DNA from: Idiomarina aquatica
Lineage (GTDB): Bacteria; Pseudomonadota; Gammaproteobacteria; Enterobacterales; Alteromonadaceae
Assembly (NCBI RefSeq): GCF_004362895.1
Contig: NZ_SNXI01000005.1
Span: forward strand, 1-64,000
Reading direction: 5' to 3'
DNA: 64,000 bases
Notes under the pieces: generated by a model
What the model was told of the DNA's origin: nothing
What the model saw: the letters and a program-made list of their open reading frames with translations, nothing else
Databases searched by the model: none
Shown: positions 33,108 through 40,626 of the stretch, piece after piece
How the letters are laid out: each line of letters starts with the position of its first letter
Numbering within the stretch: the first letter of the stretch is position 1
Made by a program: the position numbers and the translations under genes

Positions 33108-33253
33108 AGTTAACTCCTTTTCTGTTTTGTTACCGCTGTTACGAATTTCTCTTAGCGATAGATTTATTTCGGCTAAATATAACCGCTTTTATTGATCTGC
33201 ATTAAAAATACATTTAGGATGAACCTATTAAACATGCATATGGAATGTTTATT

Positions 33254-33475
33254 ATGAGTCCACAGACATTACTGCGCACCTCTAATACCTCTATGGTGGT
33301 GTTTTTATTACTTTCAATCGTTGTTTTTTATTTAGCCTGGTTCCAGGAACAAAATTTACCCTTAATGTTGCTGGTGTTCCTGCATTTGTCGCAGGTGATC
33401 CTGGCGGGTTTATTTAAAGTTGCTTACGTGTTCCGCTTAATAGCGCAAAACCAGTTAGGTGAAGAGCTGCGGTAA
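33254..33475 (+). CDS. Small hypothetical membrane protein
   Basis: A 73-residue protein if started at ATG 33254, which has GGA nine bases upstream; the ATG at 33245 would add three residues. Two hydrophobic helices (about 15-35 and 42-62) are joined by a short turn, with a charged C-terminus. I do not recognise the family. It is divergent from gloA and is followed by inverted-repeat element B. Confidence 0.65.
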   Translation: MSPQTLLRTSNTSMVVFLLLSIVVFYLAWFQEQNLPLMLLVFLHLSQVILAGLFKVAYVFRLIAQNQLGEELR

Positions 33476-35508: not shown

Positions 35509-36180
35509 TTATTCGTTGTGATTTAGCCGATGCCGTCTTTCACTCCAGTCAGGCAAGAATTTATCCATCAAAGCATAAAATCTTGCATTATGGTAGCGTT
35601 CGTACAAGTGAGTTAGCTCGTGCACCACGACGTATTCGAGGCTTTGCGGCGATTTTTTAACTAAGTCAAAGTTAAGCCAGATTTTCTTTGTTCGAATATT
35701 GCAACTCCCCCAGCGCGTTTTCATTTTACGCACACCAAAATCACTCGCTTGCACCTGCATTATGGGTTGCCAATGCAACAATAGCTCACTAATTTGCTGT
35801 TTCAGCTGGCTCCGGTACCAGCGCTCAAGTCGTTGTGTGACAGCGCTTTCGTCATCGGGCTGCGCTAGCTGTACGATGATTTCATCGTCAACGATAGTCA
35901 CCTTGCTTGCACCTTGTCTTAATGCCAGTCGGTAATTACGGCCGCGATAGGGAATCATTGCGCCATCGACGAGCGGTGCAGAAGCCAACTCCGGGCGCTC
36001 GGCAAACCGTTGCTGTTGTTCTGTTATCCAGTCACTGCGGGACTCAATAATGGCGACGATATCTTCGTGTGGCCACTGCCGGGGCGCAGATACATGAACC
36101 TGGGTTGCGTTTTTGATCTTTAAATAGAGGTGTTTTGTGCGCTTTCGCTCAATCACAACCTGATGCGGTCCAATTTGCAA
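35509..36180 (-). CDS. YgjP-type metallopeptidase domain protein
   Basis: A 223-residue protein with HELTHLYERYHNARF near residue 187, the zinc motif of the YgjP/SprT-like (formerly DUF45) family, and conserved MKTRWGSCN upstream. It starts at TTG, and the choice is forced by a strong GGAGGTG site just before it. It lies 17 bases behind the ion-channel gene. The family's peptidase activity is mostly predicted, so only a metal-binding role is secure. Confidence 0.85.
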   Translation of the reverse strand: MQIGPHQVVIERKRTKHLYLKIKNATQVHVSAPRQWPHEDIVAIIESRSDWITEQQQRFAERPELASAPLVDGAMIPYRGRNYRLALRQGASKVTIVDDEIIVQLAQPDDESAVTQRLERWYRSQLKQQISELLLHWQPIMQVQASDFGVRKMKTRWGSCNIRTKKIWLNFDLVKKSPQSLEYVVVHELTHLYERYHNARFYALMDKFLPDWSERRHRLNHNE

Positions 36181-36197: not shown

Positions 36198-37007
36198 CTA
36201 GCGATCTTTTAACAACGCTTTGAGTTCCCGTATCTCACGTTGCAAATCAGCCATGCTCGGTTCCGGCTCCTGTTCACTGGCCAGTTCTTCGCGTAAGCGG
36301 TCAGCTTCGGCACGGCTCTCTTTATCCATCACGTTAACGACAATACCTATCACCATGTTTAAAAATGCAAACGCCGTTAAAAAGATAAACGACATGTAAA
36401 ACATCCAGCTGAGTGGATACACTTCCATGGTTTCGTACTGAATATCAGTCCAGTCTTCGAAGGTCATCACCCGGAACAGCGTCAACATGGATATCGCGAT
36501 GTTTTCCCACAAAAACGGATTGATATCAGCAAACAAATAACTGCCAACCGCTGCGTAAATGTAAAAAATGATGAACATTAACAGCACCACATAGCCCATC
36601 TGCGGCAAGGCTTTTAGCAGTGATGTAATCAGCGTGCGTAGTTCAGGGATTATGGAAATCATCCGCAGCACCCGGAAAATACGCACTAAGCGCGCTAACA
36701 GGGCTAGCTCAGAGTCGTTAACCGGAATTAAACTAACCACCACAACCAGGGTATCGAAAACATTCCAGCCGTTTTTAAAGAAATTACGTTTATCGTGGTC
36801 AGCAATAAAACGGATGCTAATTTCAACCACAAAGAATACCGTAATAAACCAATCCAGGCCGAGCAGCAGTTGGTTCATAATTCCCGGCAGTTCGTAGGTT
36901 TTCGCGCCAATTTCTAAGGCTGAAATAATAATCACGCTAATGACCGCAAATTCAAACAAACGGTTACTCTTTAGCGTTACCAGGCGACTTTTCAAATTCT
37001 CGTACAT
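36198..37007 (-). CDS. Prokaryotic voltage-gated cation channel, NaChBac-like
   Basis: A 269-residue single-domain channel subunit that should form tetramers in the inner membrane. S1-S3 span about 15-95, S4 is LVRIFRVLRMISIIPELR with regularly spaced arginines, and the S5-pore-S6 module follows. The selectivity filter TFEDWTD (codons 36444-36464) aligns with TLESWSM of NavAb, so it adds aspartates at the second and last filter positions. The C-terminus (about 235-269) is an acidic stretch and a coiled coil (LQREIRELKALLK). It is 25 bases behind uppP and just before the YgjP gene. Calcium permeability is inferred. Confidence 0.92.
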   Translation of the reverse strand: MYENLKSRLVTLKSNRLFEFAVISVIIISALEIGAKTYELPGIMNQLLLGLDWFITVFFVVEISIRFIADHDKRNFFKNGWNVFDTLVVVVSLIPVNDSELALLARLVRIFRVLRMISIIPELRTLITSLLKALPQMGYVVLLMFIIFYIYAAVGSYLFADINPFLWENIAISMLTLFRVMTFEDWTDIQYETMEVYPLSWMFYMSFIFLTAFAFLNMVIGIVVNVMDKESRAEADRLREELASEQEPEPSMADLQREIRELKALLKDR

Positions 37008-39567: not shown

Positions 39568-40626
39568 TCAGGTGTACATTTCGATACGATTTCGACCATT
39601 ATCTTTCGCTTTATAAAGTGCTTTGTCGGCATGACCAAGCAGGGTTTCTGCATCGTAGCCCGGGCGCCAAACCGCAATCCCCCCACTAAAGGTTACCTCA
39701 TGCTCACAAATTGGCGTGTCCGCAATAAGTTCCCGTAGCCGCTCGGCTAATTGGTATGCTTGCCGGCTACTGGTATTGGGCATCAGTACGGCAAATTCCT
39801 CGCCACCCCAGCGTGCCAGAAAGTCCTCACTACGTAGGTTTTGCTGTAAATAAGTTGCCAATGACTGCAACACAGAATCACCAAATAGATGCCCAAACTG
39901 ATCATTTACGCGTTTAAAATGATCAATATCGACAAGCAGCAACGCAAACGGCTGTTGTTTGCGCTCAGCATCAACAACGTATTTATGTAACTGTTGGTCG
40001 AAACGCTGACGGTTGTTCAACCCTGTTAACTTATCCGTGTTAGCGATGATTTCTAGCTGTTCACGGTTTTGCTGTAACTGCAACATAGCATCAGCTCGGG
40101 TACGTTCATAAAACCTGAACAGCATGATGTGTGCAATCAGCACTTCAATAACGTTCAATACACCGCCAAGTGATAGTTGGTATGTGAGACCCGCCTGAAC
40201 ATGCCCGTATACGATATAGGTGGCATAGCTAAAGAATACGATGGATACCAGGGTTCCCATGCTGCGGCCAAGCAGAAAAAATGCCACGGGCGGTATTAAC
40301 GTTGCCCATACGATACCGTAGTTATTACCACTCCAGACCGTCAGGAACGCCCAAATAATTGTGATGAACAGGATGGTTACTGCCCAGCCTGCCACTTTTA
40401 CATTCCCTGTTTTACGAAAATACCAGTAAATACAGAGCGATAACGTTAAGCCGATAGCATCAATAAAGGCGATTTCTTTAGCATCGAAAAGAAATAGGTT
40501 CAGCGCGGTAACAACGCCGGCAAGTATGCAGACAAATAGAAGTAAGTGATAAATGAGCTTGGCACGGTGAAAGTCGCCGTGATGGCGTGGAATATGAGAA
40601 AAGTTTTTATACCAAAACGACAACAT
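39568..40626 (-). CDS. Membrane diguanylate cyclase with multi-helix sensor
   Basis: A 352-residue protein. About residues 22-175 form a block of six or so membrane helices without a recognised ligand domain, a short coiled region follows, and the GGDEF domain fills the C-terminus. The signature is RWGGEEFAVLMP and the inhibitory site RSED precedes it, so it is likely an active, product-inhibited cyclase. Its start codon directly abuts a 13-bp perfect hairpin (40627-40662) that includes part of the ribosome binding site. Confidence 0.9.
   Translation of the reverse strand: MLSFWYKNFSHIPRHHGDFHRAKLIYHLLLFVCILAGVVTALNLFLFDAKEIAFIDAIGLTLSLCIYWYFRKTGNVKVAGWAVTILFITIIWAFLTVWSGNNYGIVWATLIPPVAFFLLGRSMGTLVSIVFFSYATYIVYGHVQAGLTYQLSLGGVLNVIEVLIAHIMLFRFYERTRADAMLQLQQNREQLEIIANTDKLTGLNNRQRFDQQLHKYVVDAERKQQPFALLLVDIDHFKRVNDQFGHLFGDSVLQSLATYLQQNLRSEDFLARWGGEEFAVLMPNTSSRQAYQLAERLRELIADTPICEHEVTFSGGIAVWRPGYDAETLLGHADKALYKAKDNGRNRIEMYT

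Follow-up and report, generated by a model that had tools for sequence, protein, structure and literature searches.

The window, i.e. the whole stretch of 64,000 nucleotides of Idiomarina aquatica DNA analysed here, carries a gene for a one-domain voltage-gated cation channel which, by analogy with measured homologs, is best regarded as sodium-preferring and calcium-blockable, on the ancestor-like/NavRh side of the BacNav family (a probability of roughly 55% is given to this reading). The protein is real, intact and conserved, is of a kind already known, and combines a recognisable fold class and an intact voltage sensor with an acidic conserved filter, TFEDWTD, set in a pore scaffold other than that of NavAb. 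The letters of this filter do not suffice to tell calcium selectivity, because NavPp from Plesiocystis pacifica, whose filter is near-identical, conducts mostly sodium and undergoes calcium block.

The channel gene and its product

36198..37007, minus strand: voltage-gated cation channel, one-domain (6TM), 269 aa (ORF; Pfam Ion_trans 2e-44; AlphaFold2; Foldseek)
36204..36254, minus strand: C-terminal helix, residues 252-268, coiled coil (AlphaFold2 block pLDDT ~92; sequence MADLQREIRELKALLKDR)

The ORF is open from an ATG start over its 269 codons for amino acids, and residues 16-232 of the product account for the Ion_trans match. The AlphaFold2 model displays six helices with a mean pLDDT of 86, including a long S6-neck helix (residues 200-245) followed by the separate C-terminal helix, and was matched by Foldseek to NavMs, CavAb, NavRh, NavAb and NaChBac. 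As a single-domain 6TM Ion_trans protein with a pore loop, the window channel falls within the BacNav superfamily, and the similarity of its C-terminal sequence MADLQREIRELKALLKDR to the C-termini of NaChBac and NavAb, together with the model, points to a coiled coil after S6. Regarding ion selectivity, the monomer model is uninformative and was discarded as evidence.

Placement in the BacNav family

The reference sequences of NavAb and NaChBac were exact against their PDB entries, and that of NavRh (alphaproteobacterium HIMB114, PDB 4dxw) was taken from a public genome, with 219 residues and one mismatch to 4dxw. A tree of 79 rows resolved three clades, one of canonical BacNavs, NavAb and NaChBac included, one of TLEDWTD channels, and one that unites NavRh with the TFEDWTD channels, that of the window among them. 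The latter grouping, separate from NavAb and NaChBac, received a support of 99/97, and of 100/99 once the pore columns were removed, bearing in mind that the placement of NavRh rests on a long branch. The TLEDWTD clade stood beside the window clade when the pore columns were kept (98/93) and, weakly, beside the NavAb clade without them (91/47). Members of this second clade (L132-L140, L142, L184-L188 and others) mostly exhibit TLEDWTD, show about 40% identity to the window channel and in some genomes (e.g. G112, G131, G197 and G260) occur together with a TFEDWTD channel.

By sequence, the closest solved prokaryotic channel is also NavRh, with an E-value of 4e-61 vs. about 1e-36 for the NavAb entries. 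NavRh is sister to the window channel in both trees, shares about 45% identity with it and has the same short P2 spacing, but differs by its TLSSWET filter, a Gln instead of the Arg before the filter, its long branch and the lack of heterologous current. As for NavAb and NaChBac, they share with the window channel the six-helix topology, four S4 arginines and a C-terminal coiled coil, whereas their filters are of the TLESW(S/A)x type, preceded by Gln and followed by a 15-residue P2 spacing, and identity is only about 28-36% in structural alignment. These comparisons place the window channel on the NavRh/ancestor-like side of the family, off the NavAb scaffold used for CavAb.

In terms of the types described so far, the window channel is not a canonical BacNav, as its TFEDWTD filter is not of the TLESWxxG type and it does not group with NavAb or NaChBac. 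It matches the ancestor-like BacNavs (AnclNavs) as defined in PMC7041947, by its acidic TLESW-like filter and a position in the tree outside the NavAb-like and Bacillus groups, and the NavRh type by its sister grouping and short P2; with Asp185 in place of the Gly at filter position 4, it is not of the CavMr type. Ancestor-like BacNavs with acidic filters are spread over many phyla (PMC7041947). A Cellvibrionaceae genome (G752), found in a family-level search centred on Marinimicrobium of the same family, holds a single BacNav-type gene, encoding a TFEDWTD channel with 61% identity to that of the window and falling in the same clade. This genome being taken as Teredinibacter turnerae, the channel of this species (YP_003073405), classed as an AnclNav (PMC7041947), is probably a direct ortholog of the window channel; if G752 is T. 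turnerae T7901, Sf9 cells have already served to express a direct ortholog, which gave no current.

The selectivity filter and pore loop

36444..36464, minus strand: selectivity filter TFEDWTD, residues 182-188 (sequence; invariant in 156 distinct orthologous CDS)
36471..36473, minus strand: Arg179 in the P1 helix, three residues before the filter Thr (Arg in 186/186 distinct EDWTD channels)

The initial annotation had aligned TFEDWTD to TLESWSM of NavAb and stressed two aspartates held in common with CavAb. These aspartates are indeed there, but the full register does not hold, since the filter Trp and the S6 Trp are 14 residues apart in EDWTD channels (where measurable) and in NavRh, vs. 15 in the NavAb/NaChBac type. 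Because the window clade is one residue shorter after the Trp, the final filter Asp is out of simple register with Met181 of NavAb. CavAb (TLDDWSD, PDB 5klb) resembles the window channel in its fold class and in having Asp at filter positions 4 and 7, but it is a man-made derivative of NavAb, with Asp rather than Glu at position 3, Gln172 before the filter and a P2 one residue longer.

While Arg occupies the position three residues before the filter Thr in each of the 186 distinct EDWTD channels, Gln is found there in NavAb, NaChBac, NavRh and the canonical channels. An Arg of this kind was also seen with ESWTS and EGWT filters, and these comparisons support a one-way coupling in which EDWTD always comes with Arg, which can itself accompany ESW or EGW. 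Among five orthologs of one family (f194), four (L225-L228) combine Gln, TFESWAT and the 15-residue spacing, and the fifth (L168) combines Arg, TFEDWTD and the 14-residue spacing, with 81-85% identity between L168 and the other four outside the pore loop. For L168 and L228, identity is 85% outside the pore loop and only 13 of 27 positions are alike inside. The natural reading of this difference is a coordinated switch or a cassette replacement, which would resemble a natural pore-cassette swap.

A tentative and rather doubtful extension would be that the acidic filter, Arg179 and the P2 shortened by one residue form a single selectivity module, inherited or exchanged as a unit, in which the Arg offsets the carboxylates and makes the EDWTD pore sodium-preferring and calcium-blocked rather than calcium-selective. 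If so, the orthologs with Gln, ESWAT and a longer P2 would be natural controls.

A statistical proof of coupling between Arg179 and Asp185 was sought on a tree from which the pore columns had been removed and was not obtained, as only two of six independent pairs change jointly and the other four are the same in Arg (p = 0.5). Besides, one clade member (L131, genome G220) has an altered TFDNWAH filter, with Gln before it and a longer P2 (spacing of 18). The exact string TFEDWTD gave no match in the literature searched.

Sodium or calcium

NavPp, which provides the nearest measured native filter (TLEDWTD), gives larger currents in Na+, with a PCa/PNa of 0.308 and calcium block (PMC7041947). Compared by filter alone, it resembles the window channel as a one-domain channel with three acidic filter positions per subunit and a filter only one residue off, the differences being Leu for Phe at position 2 and its myxobacterial origin. 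Phe is found at this position in some BacNavs and AnclNavs, and NavAb does not become calcium-blocked through the L176F substitution alone (PMC10349818). Moreover, NavPp remains calcium-blocked with the CavAb-like filters TLEDWSD or TLEDWAD (T6S and T6A; PMC7041947). The analogy with CavAb was consequently dismissed as a proof of calcium selectivity, as NavPp behaves oppositely; it stands for one position in a continuing debate, and the native homolog with the closest filter argues against this position.

A sizeable minority of the probability nonetheless goes to a native calcium-preferring or mixed Ca2+/Na+ channel, in which the twelve filter carboxylates would select Ca2+ and depolarisation would admit it as a signal. 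On the NavAb and NaChBac scaffolds, EDW(S/A)D filters do select calcium, and CavMr given the complete NavPp filter has a PCa/PNa of 13.8 (PMC7041947). In addition, a review holds the opposite view to that of PMC8002053 (see below), namely that an aspartate at position 4 (the HFS+1 'beacon') is always calcium-selective (PMC10120453), and the post-filter WTD(I/V)(M/Q)Y resembles WVDIMY of domain I in T-type Cav channels. Set against this are the sodium preference and calcium block of NavPp, CavAb-like filters included, and the behaviour of the ancestor-like group, in which calcium selectivity is conferred by Gly rather than Asp at position 4. CavMr from Meiothermus ruber (TLEGWVD) is like the window channel a native ancestor-like type with an acidic position 7, but owes its calcium selectivity to Gly at position 4 and has Val at position 6; in this native calcium channel, replacing the Gly by Asp lowers PCa/PNa from 218 to 7.7 (PMC7041947).

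Since TLEDWTD gives a ratio of 0.31 in NavPp and of 13.8 in CavMr, it is the surrounding scaffold that decides selectivity, and in one-domain channels the latter is no longer predicted by filter charge alone (PMC8002053). The NavRh filter is Na+-selective when grafted into NaChBac (PMC4225499), in favour of the sodium-preferring reading. The suggestion of the initial annotation that the channel may pass calcium, or calcium with sodium, is therefore retained in part: some calcium permeation is plausible from the two ratios above, but the case for calcium selectivity drawn from CavAb is weak, given the NavPp measurements and a scaffold of the window channel other than that of NavAb.

According to the preferred, sodium-preferring reading, the protein would form a homotetrameric, depolarisation-activated cation channel in which four subunits bring together a ring of E184, with D185 and D188 above. 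Arg179 behind the filter, possibly in contact with its carboxylates, and the P2 helix shorter by one residue would give a geometry unlike that of CavAb. In seawater, Na+ would be the main charge carrier, and external calcium would bind the acidic ring, permeate weakly and block, as in NavPp. The channel may then serve the gated re-entry of Na+ in a bacterium with a Na+ cycle; it would stay shut in the resting cell and probably need strong depolarisation to open.

The choice between sodium and calcium in one-domain channels is unsettled, as identical filter letters act differently in NavAb, NavPp and CavMr. The window clade, large and with a near-invariant filter, and counting close orthologs with a switched filter type, offers a ready set for finding the scaffold residues that decide selectivity. 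As a matter of caution, filter charge is no ground for naming channels 'calcium'.

A relative with 47% identity (L236, G058:C2:303182-303874) has the native filter TLEGWTD, i.e. the letters of the mutants NavPp-D4G and CavMr-V6T (PCa/PNa of about 40 each). It is a better candidate than the window protein for a native gammaproteobacterial calcium channel.

Voltage sensor and gating

36663..36692, minus strand: S4 gating arginines R106, R109, R112 and R115 (invariant columns of the alignment)
36900..36902, minus strand: Lys36 in S1, at the position of NaChBac Glu43 (alignment; Lys in 136/179 orthologous loci)

In an alignment of 24 rows, NavAb-type channels among them, the four S4 arginines and the charge-transfer residues F59, E62 and D85 are all invariant. 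The earlier description of the S4 arginines and the C-terminal coiled coil as intact thus agrees with the alignment and with the modelled helix 252-268, but the expectation that the channel should gate normally is not assured. The acidic S1 residue (E43 in NaChBac) is replaced by K36, and in NavSheP, E43 mutants need strong depolarisation to activate (PMC5071848). Given this substitution and the behaviour of these mutants, a depolarised activation threshold is predicted for the window channel, and might be one cause of silence in standard recordings.

The same residue bears on an improbable alternative, that of a poorly conducting or conditionally silent NavRh-like channel requiring unusual voltage, lipid or partner conditions. 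Such silence has precedents, as NavRh is non-functional in mammalian or insect cells (PMC4225499) and no current could be detected for the ancestor-like channels of T. turnerae and H. elongata (PMC7041947). Yet NavPp and CavMr, from the same broad group, do conduct, and a working channel is implied by how strictly S4, the filter and the pore are conserved across hundreds of genomes.

Distribution and conservation

The channel is present once in 17 of 18 other genomes of the same genus, with 75-89% identity, Idiomarina baltica being among the carriers. Related loci were found in Alteromonas, Pseudoalteromonas, Colwellia, Marinomonas, Cellvibrionaceae, Vibrio, Endozoicomonas and others. As the six peptide patterns used for the homolog scan exclude the filter, this census is unbiased towards it. 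TFEDWTD occurred in 163 of 203 homologs in an earlier, smaller set, and in 168 of the 224 distinct homologous proteins finally gathered, TLEDWTD accounting for 18 of them. Over the 156 distinct orthologous CDS, the seven filter residues never change, although all four Thr codons and both codons of Phe, Glu and Asp occur, and this fixation of amino acids amid mixed silent codons is indicative of purifying selection. The comparison of filters across relatives that the initial annotation had called for accordingly shows that TFEDWTD is no oddity of one strain. That the ORF results from chance, pseudogenisation, a sequencing error or a strain quirk has a negligible probability and was ruled out by the orthologs within the genus, the fixed filter and the silent codon variation.

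Gene neighbourhood and host genome

37033..37830, minus strand: BacA/UppP, upstream neighbour, 25 bp gap (Pfam BacA 7e-78)
35509..36180, minus strand: YgjP-like metallopeptidase, downstream neighbour, 17 bp gap (Pfam YgjP-like 1e-63)

The common strand and the short gaps (25 and 17 bp) are suggestive of co-transcription of uppP, the channel gene and the ygjP-like gene within the genus, to which this gene order is restricted. Among 76 loci outside the genus, no flanking gene recurred in more than 14, if one disregards the channel gene and a spurious ORF overlapping it in antisense. The arrangement being genus-limited, the gene neighbourhood was dropped as a functional clue.

Two NQR2/RnfD/RnfE-family proteins encoded in the genome are consistent with a Na+ cycle, and one Na_Ca_ex-family protein has both repeats. 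Because exporters of this family are common in bacteria generally (11 of 14 control genomes), the latter lends no special support to the calcium reading. This host may well have a Na+ cycle as well as a calcium exporter, and neither decides the ion.

The other Ion_trans match of the genome (L002, G000:C22:9225-9488) joins a potassium-type filter, TVGYG, to a periplasmic-binding-protein-like region in one fusion protein and is similar to a bacterial glutamate-receptor-like channel. Elsewhere in the window, a hydrophobic ORF of 76 aa with no Pfam match (33245-33475, plus strand) lies on the strand opposite to its neighbours, and a diguanylate cyclase (39568-40626, minus strand) associates a MASE6 membrane sensor domain with a GGDEF domain.
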